Source of the DNA: Ilumatobacteraceae bacterium
GTDB taxonomy: Bacteria; Actinomycetota; Acidimicrobiia; Acidimicrobiales; Ilumatobacteraceae
Direction of reading: 5' to 3'
DNA length: 64,000 bases
Assembly (NCBI GenBank): GCA_033344875.1
Contig: JAWPMO010000001.1
Coordinates: 3,683,595 to 3,747,594, forward strand
Shown here: positions 42,909-51,577 of the stretch, piece after piece
Layout of the letters: each line of letters starts with the position of its first letter
Numbering within the stretch: the stretch's first letter is position 1
The notes under the pieces: generated by a model
What the model was told of the DNA's origin: nothing
The model's database searches: none
The model's input: the letters and a program-made list of their open reading frames with translations, nothing else
Translations under genes and position numbers: made by a program

Positions 42909-44570
42909 ATGACGACGATCGATACACGTGCAGACACGGCGGCGGGCGGCGACGGCTCGTCGGCCCTCGTGTCGTTCTTCGCCGGCGCGGCGAACTGGGT
43001 CGTGACCACCGACCACAAACGGATCGGGCGCATGTACCTCGGCGCCGGCATGCTGGCGCTCGCCGCCGCATCGGTGCTGGGCCTCGTGCTCGGCCTCGAA
43101 CGGGCCGACGAGTCGAGCGCACTGCTCGACGGCGACGCCCTGCTCCAGGTCTTCCAGGCCTATCGAGTCGGGCTGGTCTTCGGCGCCGTGATCCCGCTGG
43201 CGCTCGGTCTGGCGATCGCGATCGCCCCGCTGCAGCTCGGCGCCCGCTCGATCGCGTTTCCCCGGGTCGCGCTGACCGGTTTCTACGCATGGCTCGGCGG
43301 TCTGGCCCTCACGATGTCGGCCCTCGGTGCCAATGGCGGCATCGGCGGCGGTGACGCCGACGCCGTCGACCTGTTCCTCGCCGGCCACGGTCTGATGATC
43401 GTCGGACTGCTCGCCTCCGCCGGCTGCGTCGCCACGTCCGTGCTGACCACCCGGGCCCCCGGCATGACCATGCGCCGCGTCCCACTGTTCGCCTGGTCGT
43501 CACTGGTCGGTGCGCTGGGCATGTTGCTCGCGCTGCCGGTCGTCTTCGGTGCGATCGTCTATCTGTTTCTCGATCACCGCTACGCACAGCTCAACTTCGG
43601 TGGTTCCGAAGGCATCGCCGCCTGGATCGGCTGGGCGTTCTCGGTGCCGGCCGTCGTCGTGTTCGCCCTGCCGGCGATCGGGTTCGCCGCCGAGACGATC
43701 CCGGTCACGTTCAAGGCCCGCCCGGCCGTGCGCGGCGTCGCATTCGCCGGGATCGCTCTCGTCGCGGTCACGGCACTCGCCGCCGTCACCCAGCAGTTCG
43801 TCCACGCGGTCACGTTCGACACCTCCGGTCAGGAGTTCCTCGAGGGCGCCGTGCCGATGCTGGTCTTCACCGGTTTGCCGCTGCTCGGGCTCCTCATCGT
43901 GATGGCCCTCGGCGCGTTGACCGCCAAGAACGGCCTCGCCGACGGTCGGCCTCGCGTCTCCGCACCGTTCGTGTTCGGGTTCCTCGGGCTCGGCATGATC
44001 ACCGTCGGCCTCGTCGGCAACCTGCTCCAGAGCATCACCGACCTCGAACTCCTCGGCACCACCTTCGAAGAGGGCGCCACGCTCTACGTCGTCGACGGCA
44101 CGGCACTGGCCGTCATGGGCGGCGTCGTGTTCTGGGCGCCGAAGCTGTGGGGGCGGGTGCTGCCCGACAAGAAGGTGTTGCCGCTCGCACTGCTGGGCGT
44201 GCTCGGCACGATCCTCGCATCCCTGCCGCTGTACATCGCCGGGTTCCTCGACCAGGCCGGCGGCATCCCCGCCAACGACGCCGACGTCGCGACGTTCCTG
44301 TCGATCGGCGACGTCGAGGGCGAGGCGCTCTGGACGATCCTCTCGCTGGCCGGTCACGGCCTCGTCGCTCTGACGGTCGTCGCGTTCGTCGGCCTGATGC
44401 TCGCGACCTTCACCGGTGACGGCGACGCCGCCGACGACAATCCGTACGGCGGCCACACGATCGAGTGGAGCACGCCCTCGCCGGCTCCCGCCCACAACTA
44501 CGAGCACGTCGCCACGGTGGCGTCCCCGACGCCCCAGTTCGACCTGACCCACGAAGGGAGCCAGTCGTGA
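42909..44570 (+). CDS. Cytochrome c oxidase subunit I homologue without metal ligands
   Basis: A 553-residue membrane protein with about 12 helices that aligns along its length to the true CtaD at 47585. Shared landmarks are W-x-x-T-x-DHK(K/R)(L/I)G, PLQ(I/L)GAR-x-(V/I)AFPR, RAPGM(S/T), a later A/W-PK(L/M)(W/F)G. Yet every catalytic ligand is changed. Helix II His93 is Tyr85, CuB His271 is Val246 and its Tyr275 partner Val250. The HH pair 320/321 is Gln295/Gln296, and the HFH pair 406/408 is Gly389/Thr391. It cannot bind heme a, heme a3 or CuB in the usual way. The gene is intact and first in the oxidase cluster, so a structural or regulatory role is inferred. Confidence 0.85.
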   Translation: MTTIDTRADTAAGGDGSSALVSFFAGAANWVVTTDHKRIGRMYLGAGMLALAAASVLGLVLGLERADESSALLDGDALLQVFQAYRVGLVFGAVIPLALGLAIAIAPLQLGARSIAFPRVALTGFYAWLGGLALTMSALGANGGIGGGDADAVDLFLAGHGLMIVGLLASAGCVATSVLTTRAPGMTMRRVPLFAWSSLVGALGMLLALPVVFGAIVYLFLDHRYAQLNFGGSEGIAAWIGWAFSVPAVVVFALPAIGFAAETIPVTFKARPAVRGVAFAGIALVAVTALAAVTQQFVHAVTFDTSGQEFLEGAVPMLVFTGLPLLGLLIVMALGALTAKNGLADGRPRVSAPFVFGFLGLGMITVGLVGNLLQSITDLELLGTTFEEGATLYVVDGTALAVMGGVVFWAPKLWGRVLPDKKVLPLALLGVLGTILASLPLYIAGFLDQAGGIPANDADVATFLSIGDVEGEALWTILSLAGHGLVALTVVAFVGLMLATFTGDGDAADDNPYGGHTIEWSTPSPAPAHNYEHVATVASPTPQFDLTHEGSQS

Positions 44571-45160
44571 GCACTGCGACCGGCCAGCTGGCACTGCCCC
44601 CCGCAGCCCCGGCGGCGCCCCGACGTCAACTGTTCATCGGCACCGCCGTCGCCTGTGTCGCGGCGACGATGCTCATCGGCGGCATGCTCGCGATCTGGGT
44701 GCTGCTGCGCGAACGGGTCGTCGACGGCGGCGGCCGTTTCCCGGTCGACCACATCATCCCCGAGGTCGCCAGCAACGTGATGCTGATGACCGTCTGGGCG
44801 CTCTGTCTCTTCGCCCAGTGGGCCGTGTACTCCGGTACCCGCGGCGACCGGGCCCACACGGCCCTCGCGCTCGGCGTGACCGGGCTCCTCGCGATCGCCT
44901 TCATCAACGCCCAGGCGTTCGTCTACGTCGACATGGGCGTCGAGATCAACGAGACCTATTACGGGGCGCTGTTCTACGCCATCACCGGTGTCATGCTGGC
45001 GCTGGTCGTGGCCGGCCTCGTCTACTCGACCGTCGCCGCCTTCCGGGCGCTCGGTGGTCGACTGGCCGAAACCGAGATCCTCTCGGCGCACGCCCTCTAC
45101 TGGTACTTCATTGCCATCGCGTACAGCGCGGTCTGGTTCTTCGTCTACGTCACCAAGTGA
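44567..45160 (+). CDS. Cytochrome c oxidase subunit III homologue (divergent)
   Basis: A 197-residue protein with five or six helices in the CtaE/CyoC pattern. Compared with CtaE at 49575, the helix segment YTLTGFHGVHVSVGV reads YAITGVMLALVVAGL here, and GLYWHFVDIVW reads ALYWYFIAIAY, so the conserved histidines are gone. The GTG start overlaps the stop of the subunit I homologue (GTGA). The two make a parallel, probably non-redox, I+III pair. Confidence 0.8.
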   Translation: MSTATGQLALPPAAPAAPRRQLFIGTAVACVAATMLIGGMLAIWVLLRERVVDGGGRFPVDHIIPEVASNVMLMTVWALCLFAQWAVYSGTRGDRAHTALALGVTGLLAIAFINAQAFVYVDMGVEINETYYGALFYAITGVMLALVVAGLVYSTVAAFRALGGRLAETEILSAHALYWYFIAIAYSAVWFFVYVTK

Positions 45161-45173
45161 GTCAGCACCCACG

Positions 45174-46301
45174 ATGTTCACCACCGGTTCCAAACTCCTG
45201 ATCGGCTCCGCCGCCGCCTCCGCCGTCTTCGCGGTGGTGTACGGCATCGCCCAAGGCGGTGCGCTCGGCACCATCGGCCTGATCTCCGCTGCCGTCGCGC
45301 TCGCCGGCCTCGCCGGGCTCAACACGTTCGTCAGCGACTCCAACGTCTCGGCGATGGACCACGATGCGTTCGCCACCTCGGCCGCCGCACAGGCGACCGC
45401 TCGGCCCAGCCTCTGGCCGCTGCTGGTCGCCCTGGGTGCGACCACCGTCACCCTCGGTCTCGTCACCTCCCGGGCGTTCTTCATCGTCGGTTTCATCGCG
45501 ATCATCGCCGGCGCCATCGAGTGGCTGTTGCAGGGCTGGAGCGAGCGGGCCTCGTCCGACCAGGGGTACAACGCCGACGTGCGCAACCTGATGGCCGACC
45601 CCATGGAGCTGCCGGTCGCCGGAGCCATCGGCGCCGCGGTCGTGGTGTACTCGTTCAGCCGCATCATGCTCGGCCTGCCGTCCAAGTCGGCGACGGTCAT
45701 CGCGTTCTCGGTCGCGGCAGCGGTCGTGCTGGCGGTCGGCACGTTCGTCGGCCTCAAGCGTGGCGCCTCCAAGACCTCGCTGACGGGGGCCTTCTCGATC
45801 GCCGCCGTCGCCCTGATCGGTGCCGGCACGTTCGCCGGCCTCAACGGCGAACGCGACATCCATCCGCACCATTCCACGGCGTACATCGCCGAAGAAGACG
45901 AATGCGGCACCGAGGAGACCGAAGCCGACGAGCGAGCCAGCCAGACCGTGGCCGCCAAGTCCAACCTCGCCGCCGAGCTCACGTTCGACGGTTCGACGCT
46001 CACCGCCGAGGCGACGGGTTTCGACGGCAGCTTCGACTCGCTGACGCTGCCCCGTTCGAACCCGAGCAACATCATCTTCCGCAACGAATCCGACCACCAC
46101 GCCCGTCTGGTGATCGAGATGCACCCGGCGATCGTCGACGGCGAACCCGCCGGGCCCGAGCGAATCTGCACGGCGCTGGTCGACGAGGGTGGTGCGCAGT
46201 TGCTCACCATCGTGTTCGATCGGCCGAGCATCGCGCTCGAAGACGGCTACGAGTTCACCGTGGCCGGTAGCGAAGCCATCCTCGAAGTGGTCGTGCCGTG
46301 A
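45174..46301 (+). CDS. CtaF-like membrane protein with cupredoxin-like C-terminal domain
   Basis: A 375-residue protein. Residues 1-130 resemble the actinobacterial oxidase subunit IV (CtaF of mycobacteria): a first pair of helices with GTIGLISAAVALAGLAGL, then SLWPLLVALGATTVTLGL and IIAGAIEWLLQGWSE. Three more helices follow (to about residue 235). The last 120 residues form a beta-rich extracytoplasmic domain (LTFDGSTLTAEATGF, LPRSNPSNIIFRNESDHHARLVIEM) that looks like a cupredoxin but lacks a normal Cys-x2-4-His site. With the two genes before it this gives I-, III- and IV-like subunits ahead of ctaC. Confidence 0.65.
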   Translation: MFTTGSKLLIGSAAASAVFAVVYGIAQGGALGTIGLISAAVALAGLAGLNTFVSDSNVSAMDHDAFATSAAAQATARPSLWPLLVALGATTVTLGLVTSRAFFIVGFIAIIAGAIEWLLQGWSERASSDQGYNADVRNLMADPMELPVAGAIGAAVVVYSFSRIMLGLPSKSATVIAFSVAAAVVLAVGTFVGLKRGASKTSLTGAFSIAAVALIGAGTFAGLNGERDIHPHHSTAYIAEEDECGTEETEADERASQTVAAKSNLAAELTFDGSTLTAEATGFDGSFDSLTLPRSNPSNIIFRNESDHHARLVIEMHPAIVDGEPAGPERICTALVDEGGAQLLTIVFDRPSIALEDGYEFTVAGSEAILEVVVP

Positions 46302-47578
46302 GCCGTCCGGCTACCCTGACCGAGAAAGTACGGACAAGCCCCCTCATGACCGAATCTCGCTCCACCGCCCGTCGTACCGGTCTCGCCGTCGCTGCACTCG
46401 GCGCCGCCATGGTGCTGTCGTCGTGCGCCGCCGACGCCCCGCAAGACACGTGGGCACCCGAGGGCCAGTACGCCCAGGAGATCCACGACCTGCAGTGGTG
46501 GGTGTTCGCGATCGCCGGCGTCGTCGGCGTGATCGTGTTCGCCGTCATCATCTTCGTGGTGATCAAGTTCCGTGACCGTGGTCAGCCGATCCCCGAGCAG
46601 TCGCACGGCAACGCGCTGATCGAGTACGCGTTCATCGCCCTGCCGGCGGTGCTGCTCGCCGTGATCGCGATCCCCACCGTCGGTCTGGTCATCGACCTCA
46701 ACGACACCGACGACGCCGAGTGTGTCGTCAACGTCACCGGTCAGCAGTGGTGGTGGGAGTACGACTACCCGATCGACGCCAACGGTGACATCTGCGGCTT
46801 CACGCCCACCGGCGATGCTGCCCCGATCGTCACCAGCGGCCAGATGATCATCCCGACGCAGGCCAAGGTCGTCATCCGCGGCACCAGCCGTGACGTCATC
46901 CACTCGTTCTGGGTGCCGAAGCTCAACGGCAAGCGCGACATGGTCCCCGGACGCGTGCACACCTGGAACTTCCAGGCCGAACGGCCGGGCATCTTCGCCG
47001 GTCAGTGCGCCGAGTTCTGCGGCCTCTCGCACGCCAACATGCGGATGGAGATCGTGGCGCTCGACGACGACGATTTCCAGGCGTGGATCGACAACCAGCT
47101 CGAGCCGTACCAGGCGCCCGAAGCCGACACGCTCGCCGCCGCCGGCGAAGCGACGTTCATCGCCCAGTGCGCCCGCTGTCACCAGATCGACGGCCTCACC
47201 GACGCCGACGGCGAATTGATCGTGGCGCAGCCCGAGAACTTCGTCTGGAGCGGAGCGGCGCCGAACCTCACCAACCTCATGACCCGCAACACGTTCGCCG
47301 GCGCCACCTGGGATCTCCTGACCCCGTCGTGCCGCGACGACGTGTGGGAGGCCGATCCCGACGAGTTCGGAGCCAAGTACCTCGAGGGCGTCACCGAGGA
47401 ATGTCTCAACGAGATCGACCTGAAGGAGTGGTTGCGCGACGCCCCGGCCAAGAAGCCGATGTACGCCGACCCCGAGCTGCTGGAGGAGACCGACGACAAG
47501 GTCCGCGGCATGCCGAACCTCAACCTGTCCGAAGACCAGATCAACGAACTGGTCGCCTACCTCCTCGAGCGGAAGTGA
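46298..47578 (+). CDS. ctaC: Cytochrome c oxidase subunit II with fused cytochrome c (caa3 type)
   Basis: A 426-residue lipoprotein. Signal peptide to lipobox LSSC, two membrane helices (WWVFAIAGVVGVIVFAVI and ALPAVLLAVIAIPTVGLVI), then the CuA domain with TSRDVIHSFWVP and CAEFCGLSHANM (two Cys, His, Met). A C-terminal cytochrome c domain has CARCH and Met in RGMPNLNLSED. An insertion with two extra Cys (near SCRDDVW and EECLNEI) lies inside the cytochrome c part. It takes electrons into the oxidase. GTG 46298 overlaps the previous stop (GTGA); ATG 46346 would give a more usual signal length. Confidence 0.93.
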   Translation: MSRPATLTEKVRTSPLMTESRSTARRTGLAVAALGAAMVLSSCAADAPQDTWAPEGQYAQEIHDLQWWVFAIAGVVGVIVFAVIIFVVIKFRDRGQPIPEQSHGNALIEYAFIALPAVLLAVIAIPTVGLVIDLNDTDDAECVVNVTGQQWWWEYDYPIDANGDICGFTPTGDAAPIVTSGQMIIPTQAKVVIRGTSRDVIHSFWVPKLNGKRDMVPGRVHTWNFQAERPGIFAGQCAEFCGLSHANMRMEIVALDDDDFQAWIDNQLEPYQAPEADTLAAAGEATFIAQCARCHQIDGLTDADGELIVAQPENFVWSGAAPNLTNLMTRNTFAGATWDLLTPSCRDDVWEADPDEFGAKYLEGVTEECLNEIDLKEWLRDAPAKKPMYADPELLEETDDKVRGMPNLNLSEDQINELVAYLLERK

Positions 47579-47584
47579 TCTGAG

Positions 47585-49582
47585 ATGGCTCTGATCGAAC
47601 GTCCGGCACCCGACACGCTGACACCCGCCGTCGCGACCCCCGAGTCGACCTACGGTGCGTTCCGCCGTCCCGTCCACTCCACCGGTTGGAAGTCGTGGCT
47701 CTTCACGATCGACCACAAGAAGCTCGGCATCATGTACGGCGTCTCGGCGCTGTTCTTCTTCCTGGTCGGTGGCCTCGAGGCCCTGCTCATCCGTGCGCAG
47801 CTGGCCGGCCCCGAGGGCACGATCCTCTCGGCCGACAAGTACAACCAGATGTTCACGATGCACGCCACCACCATGGTGTTCCTGTTCGTGATGCCGATGG
47901 CGGCCGCCTTCGCGAACTACTTCGTGCCGCTCCAGATCGGCGCCCGTGACGTTGCGTTCCCACGCATCAACGCGTTCGGCTTCTGGTGCTTCATCTTCGG
48001 TGCGATCTTCATCAACACGTCGTGGCTCCTCGGTGGCGCCGCCGACGGTGGGTGGTTCATGTACGCACCGAACTCCTCGGTGCCCTTCTCACCGACCAAC
48101 GGCATCGACTTCTGGGGCCTCGGCCTCCAGATCACCGGTATCGCCTCGCTGACCGGTGCGATCAACCTGATCGTCACCGTGATCAACATGCGGGCACCCG
48201 GCATGAGCCTGATGAAGATGCCGATCTTCACCTGGATGATCTTGGTCACCCAGTTCCTGCTGCTCTTCGCGATCCCGGTCATCACCGTCGCCCTGTTCCT
48301 GCTGATGTTCCAGAGGTCGTTCGACGCCACCTTCTTCTCGGTCGAGGCGGGTGCCGACCCACTCCTGTGGCAGCACCTGTTCTGGATCTTCGGACACCCC
48401 GAGGTGTACATCCTGATCCTGCCCAGCTTCGGCATCGTGTCCGAGGTGCTCCCGGTCTTCTCGAAGAAGCCGTTGTTCGGCTACCCGCTCGTCGTGTTCT
48501 CCGGTGCGGCGATCGGCTTCGTCGGCTGGGGCGTGTGGGCACACCACATGTTCGCTTCCGGTCTCGGACCGATCTCGGTCGCCGTGTTCTCGGTGTCGAC
48601 GATGGCGATCGCGATCCCTACCGGCGTCAAGATCGTCAACTGGACCATGACGCTGTGGGGCGGCAAACTCCGATTCACGACGGCGATGCTCTTCGCGATC
48701 GGCCTGATCGTGCAGTTCACGGTCGGCGGTCTGTCCGGTGTGACCCACGCCGTCGCACCGTCCGACACGCAGCAGACCGACACGTACTACATCGTCGCCC
48801 ACTTCCATTACGTGCTGTTCGGTGGCGCGATCCTCGGTATCTTCGCCGGGCTCTACTACTGGTGGCCGAAGATGTTCGGCAAGCTCCTCGACGAGAAGTG
48901 GGGCAAGTGGAACTTCTGGATGATGATCGTCGGCATGAACCTCACGTTCGGCCCGATGCACATCATCGGCCTGCAGGGTCAGCCCCGGCGCATGTACGTC
49001 TGGACCGAGGCCCGCGCCGGATCCGGCTTCTTCGATCTGGGCTTCTGGAACCTGATCTCGTCGATCGGGTCGTTCGTCCTCGGCATCGGCGTGCTGCTCT
49101 TCTTCGTCAACGTGTTCCTCTCGCACCGTCGTCACGGCCCGGCGCCGCTCGACCCGTGGGATGCCCGTGCGCTCGAGTGGCTCACCACGAACCCGCCGAA
49201 GGAGCACAACTTCGATCGCGTGCCGACCGTCGGTCATCTCGACGACTTCTTCCACCGCAAGTACGAAGATCGCGGCGAGGACGGTCACCACGACTTCCAC
49301 CAGGTGGCCACGGCCGAGGAACTGATGGCGGTCGAAGAGGCCAACGCCGATCCCGACATCCACCTGCCGTCGCCGTCGTACTGGCCGATCGTGCTCGCCT
49401 TCGGCCTGCCGGTGATGGCCTACGGCGTGATCTACAACTTCCTGCTGATCCCGGCCGGCGCAGTCATCGTGCTGTTGGCGATGTTCGGCTGGAGCCTCGA
49501 GCCGCACACGGCGACCGAGGCCGACTACGACCCGCCGACCCCCGAGGGTGGCGCCGAACTGGAGGTCGCCGATCATGGCTGA
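47585..49582 (+). CDS. ctaD: Cytochrome c oxidase subunit I (aa3/caa3 type)
   Basis: A 665-residue catalytic subunit with 12 core helices and an extended C-terminus. Heme a ligands His93 (FTMHATTM) and His408, heme a3 ligand His406 (AHFHYV), CuB ligands His271 (GHPEVY, with Tyr275) and His320/His321 (AHHMF) are all present. It reduces O2 to water and pumps protons. The last 130 residues (DPWDARALEWLTTNPP, then two helices) include a further membrane pair as in fused actinobacterial forms. Confidence 0.97.
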   Translation: MALIERPAPDTLTPAVATPESTYGAFRRPVHSTGWKSWLFTIDHKKLGIMYGVSALFFFLVGGLEALLIRAQLAGPEGTILSADKYNQMFTMHATTMVFLFVMPMAAAFANYFVPLQIGARDVAFPRINAFGFWCFIFGAIFINTSWLLGGAADGGWFMYAPNSSVPFSPTNGIDFWGLGLQITGIASLTGAINLIVTVINMRAPGMSLMKMPIFTWMILVTQFLLLFAIPVITVALFLLMFQRSFDATFFSVEAGADPLLWQHLFWIFGHPEVYILILPSFGIVSEVLPVFSKKPLFGYPLVVFSGAAIGFVGWGVWAHHMFASGLGPISVAVFSVSTMAIAIPTGVKIVNWTMTLWGGKLRFTTAMLFAIGLIVQFTVGGLSGVTHAVAPSDTQQTDTYYIVAHFHYVLFGGAILGIFAGLYYWWPKMFGKLLDEKWGKWNFWMMIVGMNLTFGPMHIIGLQGQPRRMYVWTEARAGSGFFDLGFWNLISSIGSFVLGIGVLLFFVNVFLSHRRHGPAPLDPWDARALEWLTTNPPKEHNFDRVPTVGHLDDFFHRKYEDRGEDGHHDFHQVATAEELMAVEEANADPDIHLPSPSYWPIVLAFGLPVMAYGVIYNFLLIPAGAVIVLLAMFGWSLEPHTATEADYDPPTPEGGAELEVADHG

Positions 49583-50213
49583 CGCCGCTGTCACCGACAC
49601 CGCGCCCGAGGCGCACGACGCCCACGGTCACGACGGCCACGGTGCCCACGTCACGTCGACCGGGCTGTCCAACAACAAGCTCGCGATGTGGATCTTCCTG
49701 GGGTCCGAGTGCCTGCTCTTCGGCGGCCTCATCTCCACCTACATGCTGTATCGCGGCCGCCACAGTGAGAACCTCGGCCCCGACCAGGTGTGGGACATCC
49801 CGTTCACGTCGGCGTCGAGTTTCGTCCTGCTGATGTCGTCGCTCACGATGGTGCTGGCCGTCACGGCTGCGCAGCGCAAGGACGACCGCAACACCCGTTT
49901 GTGGCTCACCGTGACGGCGCTGCTCGGTTCGCTCTTCGTCGCCGGCCAGGTCTACGAGTTCACGACGTTCTACCGCGAGGGCCTCGGCTTCACGACGAGC
50001 CTGTTCTCGTCGAGCTTCTACACGCTCACCGGCTTCCACGGCGTGCACGTGTCGGTCGGCGTCATCATGCTGCTCGCCACGGTCGGCATGATTCTGAAGA
50101 ACCGCATTCCGGGCGACAAGGCCGAGGTGGTCGAGTTGGTCGGCCTGTACTGGCACTTCGTCGACATCGTGTGGATCCTGATCTTCACCCTCGTCTACCT
50201 GATCCCTGCCTGA
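49575..50213 (+). CDS. ctaE: Cytochrome c oxidase subunit III
   Basis: A 212-residue subunit III with a His/Asp-rich N-terminus (HDAHGHDGHGAHV) and five helices: WIFLGSECLLFGGLI, VLLMSSLTMVLAVTA, FYTLTGFHGVHVSVG and YWHFVDIVWILIF. The ATG at 49575 lies inside the last codons of ctaD, with GGAGGT just upstream, so translation is coupled. Confidence 0.95.
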   Translation: MADAAVTDTAPEAHDAHGHDGHGAHVTSTGLSNNKLAMWIFLGSECLLFGGLISTYMLYRGRHSENLGPDQVWDIPFTSASSFVLLMSSLTMVLAVTAAQRKDDRNTRLWLTVTALLGSLFVAGQVYEFTTFYREGLGFTTSLFSSSFYTLTGFHGVHVSVGVIMLLATVGMILKNRIPGDKAEVVELVGLYWHFVDIVWILIFTLVYLIPA

Positions 50214-50224
50214 TCGAGAGCGAT

Positions 50225-50626
50225 ATGTCTGACATCACCGAAACGACCGAACTCGGCGACGGCTACGACCAGCCGAACGAAGCGGTGGCCGAATCCGTCG
50301 AGCACGGAGAACACACCGTCGACGCCACGCCCGACGACCACCCCGGCGAACACTGGTCGGACCTCAAGTTCGTCTACCTGGCGCTCGGTCTCGCGGTCAT
50401 CACCGCCGTCGAGGTGGCGCTGAGCTACATGGTCGACGACCTCGGGCCGGTGTTCCTGCCTGCGTTGCTGATCCTCATGCTGGTCAAGTTCTTCGCGGTC
50501 GTGATGTACTTCATGCACCTCAAGTTCGACAATCGGCTGTTCAGCCTGATGTTCTACCTCGGGCTGGGTCTGGCGGTTACCGTGTACGTGATCGCCCTGT
50601 TGACCTTCCAGTTCTTCAACTCCTGA
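50225..50626 (+). CDS. ctaF: Cytochrome c oxidase subunit IV (CtaF/CyoD type)
   Basis: A 133-residue protein: acidic N-terminus, then three helices including VFLPALLILMLVKFFAVVMYFMHLKFDNRLF, of which the VMYFMHLKFD end is the family hallmark. A small stabilising subunit of the caa3 complex. Twelve bases after ctaE. Confidence 0.92.
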   Translation: MSDITETTELGDGYDQPNEAVAESVEHGEHTVDATPDDHPGEHWSDLKFVYLALGLAVITAVEVALSYMVDDLGPVFLPALLILMLVKFFAVVMYFMHLKFDNRLFSLMFYLGLGLAVTVYVIALLTFQFFNS

Positions 50627-50641: not shown

Positions 50642-51577
50642 ATGGCGCGCACCAACGTGATCGCGGCCGATCTGACGGTCGATCCACTGGCATTCCAGTG
50701 GCACCCGGAGGTCTGGCTGCTCGTCGCCTTCCTGACCGCGGCCTACGTGTACATGGTGCGCGTGATCGGCCCGCGGGCGGTCCCCGCCGGTCGTCCGGTC
50801 GTGTCGCGCATGAACATGGTCGCCTTCCCGTTGGCGATGCTGACGCTGTGGATCGCGTCCGACTGGCCGCTGCACGACATCAGCGAGGAGTACCTCTACT
50901 CCGCCCACATGATCCAGCACATGATGCTGAGCTACTTCCTGCCGCCGCTCGCCCTGATGGCGACGCCGACGTGGCTCGCACGGATCCTGCTCGGCGAGGG
51001 CGCGATCCGACGGTCGGTGCAGTTCTTGTCCAAGCCCGTCATCGCCGGGGTGCTCTTCAACGCGATGGTGATGATCCTCCACATCCCGCTGCTGGTCAAC
51101 GCGTCGCTCGACAACGGAGCGCTGCACTACGCACTCCACGTGCTCGTCGTCGCGACATCGCTTCTAATGTGGATGCCGGTGTGCGGACCCGTCCCCGAGT
51201 TCCGGATGGGCATCCCCGGTGCGATGGTCTACCTGTTCCTGCAATCGGTCGTGCCGACGGTGCCGGCCGCGTGGCTGACCTTCGCCGAGGGGGTCGTCTA
51301 CGACGCGTACGACCAGCCGCTGCGATTGTGGGGCATCAGCGCAGTGAGCGACCAGCAGCTCGCCGGTGCCGTCATGAAGGTCGCAGGAGGATTCTTCCTG
51401 TGGTCGATCGTGATCTACCTGTTCTTCAAGAAGTTCGCGGTCCGCGACGACGAGGCGTACAACTTCAGTCGCCGCGGCACCATCCCGTCGGCCGAGATCG
51501 TCGGCAACGACGACACGCCGCTCACCACCGCCGACGTCGAGCGTGAGTTCGCGGCGACGACACCGCCCGACGCCTGA
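50642..51577 (+). CDS. ctaG: Oxidase assembly factor, caa3_CtaG family
   Basis: A 311-residue membrane protein with seven or so helices. YSAHMIQHMMLSYFLPPL, FNAMVMILHIPLLVN and LHYALHVLVVATSLLMWMPV carry the conserved His/Met residues of the Bacillus-type caa3_CtaG family, thought to help insert copper into subunit I. Preceded by GAGAGGGGCG. Last oxidase gene of the cluster. Confidence 0.92.
   Translation: MARTNVIAADLTVDPLAFQWHPEVWLLVAFLTAAYVYMVRVIGPRAVPAGRPVVSRMNMVAFPLAMLTLWIASDWPLHDISEEYLYSAHMIQHMMLSYFLPPLALMATPTWLARILLGEGAIRRSVQFLSKPVIAGVLFNAMVMILHIPLLVNASLDNGALHYALHVLVVATSLLMWMPVCGPVPEFRMGIPGAMVYLFLQSVVPTVPAAWLTFAEGVVYDAYDQPLRLWGISAVSDQQLAGAVMKVAGGFFLWSIVIYLFFKKFAVRDDEAYNFSRRGTIPSAEIVGNDDTPLTTADVEREFAATTPPDA

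Follow-up and report, generated by a model that had tools for sequence, protein, structure and literature searches.

Within the 64,000-nucleotide stretch of an Ilumatobacteraceae genome analysed here (the window; the genome is a single contig of 4.97 Mb), three intact frames at positions 42909-46301 lie directly 5′ of the cytochrome oxidase genes ctaC-ctaD-ctaE-COX4-ctaG. They encode SI (P0001), SIII (P0002) and SIV (P0003), metal-free relatives of oxidase subunits I, III and IV that are here called the "shadow" trio. Conservation, synteny, purifying selection and the absence of replacement ligands, all read from sequence, strongly support the view that the trio is a maintained non-redox subunit I/III/IV set. 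On balance, we favour a model in which it would form a cofactor-free complex, the obligate non-catalytic partner of the caa3 oxidase encoded in the same operon. The linkage to caa3 and the stepwise loss of metal sites are results of genome comparison, and from them we infer the physical role.

42909..44570, + strand: shadow subunit I (P0001, 553 aa), COX1 family (Pfam COX1, 1e-34)
44567..45160, + strand: shadow subunit III (P0002, 197 aa), a CtaE homologue without the CtaE histidines (Pfam COX3, 7.6e-10)
45174..46301, + strand: shadow subunit IV-like protein (P0003, 375 aa), a CtaF-like membrane part with a cupredoxin-fold tail
45957..46298, + strand: cupredoxin-fold domain (P0003 residues 262-375), without type 1 copper ligands

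The tight joints reported in a preliminary description of the locus are present: the SI and SIII frames overlap in a GTGA, SIII and SIV are separated by a 13-base gap, and SIV overlaps ctaC in a GTGA at 46298. The same description had called the set a complete mirror of the oxidase core; because a counterpart of subunit II is missing, it is not complete.

Loss of metal sites from a retained oxidase fold

P0001 aligns with the linked CtaD over 550 columns, nearly its full length (BLASTP, 25% identity, E 7e-40), its Pfam COX1 match exceeds the gathering score, and a library scan found no domain in it beyond COX1. An AlphaFold2 model built from 36 sequences (predicted local distance difference test score, pLDDT, 84.9; predicted template modelling score, pTM, 0.88) contains 12 long helices as in oxidase subunit I, and Foldseek comparison with solved oxidase subunits I gave TM-scores of ~0.78. 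Both the Pfam match and the predicted model agree with a 12-helix COX1 fold, in line with the earlier remark that the fold landmarks are kept.

None of the six haem and copper histidines is present in P0001, whereas all six are kept in 32/32 reference CtaD proteins. Alignments bear out the substitutions proposed at H93 (Y85), H271 (V246) and H320/321 (Q295/Q296), together with that of the cross-linked tyrosine of helix VI (Y275 by V250). The loss of H406 and H408 also stands, there being no histidine in that helix, but the residues said to replace them (G389 and T391) do not: the alignments place A390 and L392 there. Ligands and channel residues were counted across the family in 80 proteins, after a stray frame (L093_29, the 81st row) had been dropped. 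The CuB histidines, H406 and H408 were absent in 80/80, and H93 was retained in 15/80. Alternative metal ligands had been named beforehand as evidence against a metal-free protein, and no conserved histidine, cysteine or methionine replacement was found in the family: the sole invariant histidine is H36, in a cytoplasmic TDHK motif, no cysteine is invariant, and the only invariant methionine is the first residue.

The residues that mark the D-channel, the K-channel and the helix VI glutamate (D122, K349 and E273) were likewise kept in none of the 80 family proteins; in the reference CtaD proteins the D and K residues were found in 32/32 and the glutamate in 30/32. An order-wide scoring (order Acidimicrobiales) covered 101 stretches, 92 with a shadow subunit I longer than 450 residues and nine without, and among these 92 proteins K349 was found in none and D122 in two. 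Glutamine was the commonest substitute at positions 271 and 320 (37 and 45 of the 92 order-wide proteins; 60 and 68 of the 80 family proteins). Two polar residues of the membrane part, Q80 and E388, are conserved in the family, where mean column identity was 0.64 for cytoplasmic, 0.60 for membrane and 0.48 for periplasmic positions, with one periplasmic loop well conserved.

P0002 shares 26% identity with CtaE (BLASTP, E 9e-12) and scored 39.5 bits against Pfam COX3, for which the gathering score is 23.8. In the alignment, P0002 indeed has other residues in place of the histidines of the CtaE HGxH and WH motifs. P0003 matched no Pfam or NCBIfam family above cut-off, PF12270 included. Its likeness to CtaF-like segments appears as weak profile matches alone, with residues ~76-135 matching a segment that extends CtaD at its C-terminus in relatives (E values of about 3e-4 to 1e-3), and P0003 homologues were found across the order. 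In the predicted P0003 model, some seven long helices precede a domain of cupredoxin fold (residues 262-375, pLDDT ~90) that matches Cupredoxin_1, EfeO and auracyanin (Foldseek and VIA-align; Z up to 10.2); the cupredoxin-like tail first noticed in the letters is thus recovered as a fold. The His-Cys-His-Met type 1 copper motif is absent from both P0003 and the family (A5) consensus. C332 never varies in the family alignment and C244 hardly does; a disulfide between these two cysteines possibly lends stability to the copper-free domain.

Conservation of the trio and its linkage to caa3

The nearest named relatives of the shadow gene are Ilumatobacteraceae-like records, including Ilumatobacter nonamiensis. 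A shadow-level match (E 1e-46 or better; ordinary CtaD begins at 5.5e-39) was found in 110 of the 121 family genomes, with five giving weaker matches only and six none. A scan of genome contigs gave 219 pattern matches, from which 167 stretches were confirmed, and the named loci are the best 80 of these 167. SI was followed by SIII in all 80, then by SIV in 78 and ctaC in 74, the others ending at a contig edge. The ratio of nonsynonymous to synonymous substitution rates (dN/dS) of shadow I, estimated by YN00 from 18 close pairs, was 0.03-0.16 with a median of ~0.08, compared with ~0.04 for CtaD, for which 13 pairs gave a value; NG86 gave values for shadow I of up to 0.21. One SIII pair reached 0.64 (dS 0.04) and another 0.34, so the case for selection on SIII is weaker when pairs are taken singly. 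Absence from relatives together with dN/dS near 1 had been proposed as the outcome that would speak against a functional set; presence in 110/121 genomes and a dN/dS of ~0.08 are the opposite. Values far below 1 rule out decay of shadow I, and the original judgement that the gene is no decaying duplicate is sustained by this purifying selection and by frames and gene order that are widely retained. Six of the loci (L109, L131, L134, L137, L079 and L112) come from metagenome-assembled genomes whose titles (Bifidobacterium breve, Ferrithrix thermotolerans, Acidobacteria) clash with their Ilumatobacteraceae-like content and look mislabelled.

The trio is followed in the window by five oxidase genes.

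46298..47578, + strand: ctaC (P0004), caa3 subunit II (Pfam COX2 and Cytochrom_C; TIGR02866 above cut-off)
47585..49582, + strand: ctaD (P0005), active-type caa3 subunit I with the full ligand set and a CtaF-like C-terminus (TIGR02891 above cut-off)
49575..50213, + strand: ctaE (P0006), subunit III (Pfam COX3, 2.5e-18)
50225..50626, + strand: COX4_pro, caa3 subunit IV (P0007; Pfam COX4_pro, 3.3e-9)
50642..51577, + strand: ctaG, caa3 assembly factor (P0008; Pfam Caa3_CtaG, 2.8e-42)

The CuA domain and c-type haem motif of the ctaC product identify the linked oxidase as caa3 type. P0005 scored 25.1 against PF12270, just under the cut-off of 26.9. A promoter and terminator scan and an Rfam search at the locus gave nothing decisive.

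Searched with P0005, 298 genomes of the order split mostly cleanly into a group that has a caa3 ctaD and a group that has other oxidases only. Linkage was counted at caa3 ctaD loci with at least 4.6 kb of upstream sequence, and the shadow was present on the stretch at 81/81 countable loci of the order. Among 60 loci picked for the shadow, 52 were countable and all 52 carried it (51 within 4 kb of ctaD); among 40 loci picked for a caa3 without an obvious shadow, 29 were countable and all 29 carried it (28 within 4 kb). The shadow-ctaD gap exceeded 4 kb at L207 and L302. The uncounted loci (eight and 11, respectively) had no ctaD or too little upstream sequence; L183 is one of them, as is L209, a different oxidase locus that had been picked in error. 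Of the 40, the L331 and L335 stretches are centred on the second subunit I match rather than on ctaD.

The converse was assessed with an SIV profile in 70 genomes that were at least 90% complete and had no full caa3 ctaD, with genomes known or suspected to hold a shadow or a cut ctaD left out. Caa3-positive controls matched in 10/10 cases (164-353 bits), and 67 of the 70 genomes gave no shadow-level match, eight of them showing weak matches of 19-27 bits over the CtaF-like segment. The shadow in the other three adjoins ctaC or a frame-split caa3 ctaD. When 13 genomes, mostly those left out, were rechecked, a caa3 ctaD was recovered in 11, whether whole, split or cut; the other two, G407 and G545, have a shadow and none was found. 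Among the roles first suggested (assembly scaffold, supercomplex partner, ion channel or sensor), this co-occurrence favours a partner or an assembly role for the trio.

Two caa3 ctaD genes lie in two frames (L364:5141-7320 and L194:4859-6854), reflecting a frameshift or an assembly error. The window's own genome also carries an orphan ctaD (L359:9197-11524; G000:C1:3617705-3619684) with 84% identity to the operon copy, on a 19.5 kb stretch holding no ctaC, ctaE or shadow gene. A CtaG-like frame lies 6 kb off, and a P-type ATPase (Pfam E1-E2_ATPase) and an IS110-family transposase are nearby.

Ancestry and surviving stages of metal loss

The shadow proteins fall into a single clade of an 88-row tree (Shimodaira-Hasegawa-like approximate likelihood ratio test, SH-aLRT, 100); this clade joins the aa3 CtaD of classical actinobacterial type, and the linked caa3 CtaD stands apart (96). 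This placement agrees with a C-terminal LEWxTxSPPPxxNF signature, similar in shadow I and classical actinobacterial CtaD, and with the best solved relative, the best PDB sequence match of P0001 being mycobacterial CtaD (6hwh, E 1.1e-33). Three classical clusters (L279-L281, family f28) read ctaC-ctaD-ctaE-ctaF-like, with the I-III-IV order of the shadow. An origin of shadow I as a duplicate of the linked ctaD was rejected by the tree and by an approximately unbiased (AU) test (p-AU 0.009, log-likelihood difference 21.6), the latter using 49 rows and a quick tree with long branches in play. As a statement of descent, the earlier phrase "mirror of the oxidase" therefore fails, since both analyses group the set with the classical actinobacterial aa3 lineage.

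Beyond the order, 396 genomes of the phylum were searched with A3 and 296 with A2, and among the matches listed were ordinary oxidase genes and cupredoxins. Twenty stretches were read from such matches. Thirteen lay outside the order, all with a six-histidine CtaD, and the seven from the order comprised six with ordinary CtaD and one basal shadow (L286); no shadow was thus recognised outside the order in 13/13 loci read among the matches listed. In another order of the class, represented by four genomes, the three clusters read were all ordinary, and a P0003 search of 296 class genomes gave short matches only outside the order (2 genomes). Other phyla were covered by the one contig scan described above. 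With a broad shadow profile, shadow and ordinary CtaD cannot be told apart by score.

Within the order, a complete CuB triad was found in 0/92 shadow I proteins, and six retain one CuB histidine. The low-spin haem pair H93/H408 is retained in 30/92 (L305, truncated before H93, was scored as H93-less), with H406 also present in 10 of these. A complete type 1 copper motif (H..CDxH..M), counted with a self-written pattern, is carried on SIV in 22/92, all within the haem-pair 30, and 62/92 have neither feature. The copper domain of basal SIV relatives matches auracyanin, amicyanin and Pfam Cupredoxin_1. In a 114-row tree the two deepest clades have haem pair and copper in 21/22 rows, and at least 8 changes were counted for the haem pair and 3 for copper. 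Fisher tests that ignore kinship associated copper with the haem pair (6e-15) and H93 with H408 (5e-8); a kinship-aware test had three pairs and no power (median p 0.5). The rule that type 1 copper occurs only with the haem pair held in 22/22 and was then broken by loci read afterwards by eye, with L362 and L364 carrying copper without the haem pair (22/24); L363 carries the haem pair without copper. Because either feature can stand alone, the order of haem and copper loss is not fixed.

The basal relatives (L206, L207, L208, L210, L286 and others) combine a CuB-less subunit I that has haem ligands, an SIII, and a fusion of CtaF-like and type 1 copper parts. Their trios have no subunit II of their own, and the first CuB histidine position is often arginine or tyrosine. 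From these genes, they would encode an apparently undescribed redox complex. In family f12 (L204, L309, L311 and L314), the first CuB histidine has been kept or regained and the rest of the site is gone.

Proposed role and relation to known systems

In the model that we favour, the trio would be made together with the same-operon caa3 oxidase, SI, SIII and SIV would form a membrane complex without subunit II or cofactors, and this complex would most likely dock on the active core as a pseudo-monomer. Fold, partner subunits and linkage have been kept, conservation is higher on the cytoplasmic than on the periplasmic side, and the redox and proton-channel features have been shed, which is the pattern expected of a structural caa3 partner. 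Complex formation within the trio and with caa3, and a structural rather than an assembly or sensing role, are what we infer from it. A broader, more tentative version extends to the whole order: a redox I/III/IV module may have been converted stepwise into the obligate cofactor-free half of a hetero-oligomeric caa3, with basal members representing an undescribed CuB-less redox complex with type 1 copper and haem. CuB would then have been lost first, and haem and type 1 copper later and repeatedly.

Several observations weigh against an obligate structural partner. The predicted models are of single chains, and operon linkage suits an assembly factor equally well. The linkage is not tight everywhere: in genus g58 of family f20 (L207, G465), 7.7-7.8 kb separate the trio from ctaD. 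Two genomes, G407 (99% complete, 6% contamination) and G545 (81% complete), have a shadow, and a caa3 ctaD was not found in them. The 8 kb 3′ of the G407 trio (L183) holds no cta genes and its SIV is cut short; these two cases may reflect chimerism of the contig, gaps in the assembly or a shadow that truly exists without caa3. A caa3 operon outside the order (L298, another family of the same class) has no shadow in 4.8 kb upstream, and the orphan second caa3 ctaD of the window's own genome is without shadow genes.

The main competing explanation, which we regard as distinctly less probable though worth taking seriously, is that the trio is an assembly or maturation platform for caa3 that is not in the finished enzyme, for example templating the docking of subunits III and II or holding subunit I before haem insertion. 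The shared operon, the same co-occurrence with caa3 and the known assembly gene ctaG at the operon's end all suit such a platform, but the haem pair and type 1 copper of the basal members would be superfluous for it, and the caa3 operon at L298 does without a shadow. It is improbable that the former active-site cavity now serves as a sensor or as a conduit for small molecules or ions: Q80 and E388 are conserved in the membrane part and glutamine is frequent in place of histidine at 271 and 320, but the cavity positions differ between families, the channel residues are gone (K349 in 0/92 and 0/80, D122 in 2/92 and 0/80), and P0001 contains no further domain that was found. A trio that is still redox-active through unusual ligands is very unlikely. 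The basal H93/H408 pairs (30/92, 10 also with H406), 22 of them with a type 1 copper domain, are what speaks for it, whereas the family has lost H406, H408 and the CuB histidines in 80/80, keeps H93 in only 15/80, and has H36 as its only invariant histidine and no invariant cysteine. Loss of all catalytic residues is also what a decaying duplicate of ctaD would show, an explanation that can be dismissed in view of purifying selection, the retained frames and gene order, and a phylogenetic place different from that of the linked ctaD.

Metal ligands are the feature by which proteins are assigned to the haem-copper superfamily. A literature search found no description of a metal-free subunit I/III/IV set or of a haem-copper core pseudoenzyme, and within the limits of that search a maintained cofactor-free oxidase core is new within the haem-copper oxidases. 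At least one published haem-copper oxidase classifier and survey dropped sequences without six conserved histidines before analysis (PMC3084760), and such filtering could explain why shadow proteins went unreported. If the proposed role is true, the trio would be the first haem-copper oxidase core working without any metal. Conservation of a core without metals, linked to a working oxidase, would mean that the oxidase scaffold can be selected for something other than oxygen chemistry; with intermediates still extant, the sequence of cofactor losses can be tested directly.

Known systems resemble the trio in part. As described in the available part of one report, the cbb3-type oxidase of Nitrospina has one CuB ligand replaced in an otherwise largely complete enzyme (PMC3578206); both systems depart naturally at CuB, but the shadow has lost every site. 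The classical actinobacterial aa3 subunit I (CtaD, NF050116), as in the mycobacterial III2IV2 supercomplex, shares with the shadow the C-terminal signature, tree position and I-III-IV order. Unlike it, the shadow has lost the six histidines, the tyrosine and the D- and K-channel residues, has no subunit II and is linked to caa3. The caa3 (A-type) oxidase, encoded by ctaCDE-COX4-ctaG, shares operon and fold with the shadow, but its CtaD retains all ligands and the AU test rejects a sister relation. Type 1 copper cupredoxins (auracyanin, amicyanin, Cupredoxin_1) have their site in basal P0003 relatives and their fold in the P0003 model, whereas the domain of the P0003 family is ligand-less and fused to a CtaF-like membrane part. 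The inactive MPP-like core proteins of complex III are pseudoenzyme subunits, dead paralogues kept structurally, and the shadow would follow the same principle of a catalytically dead paralogue serving as a structural part.

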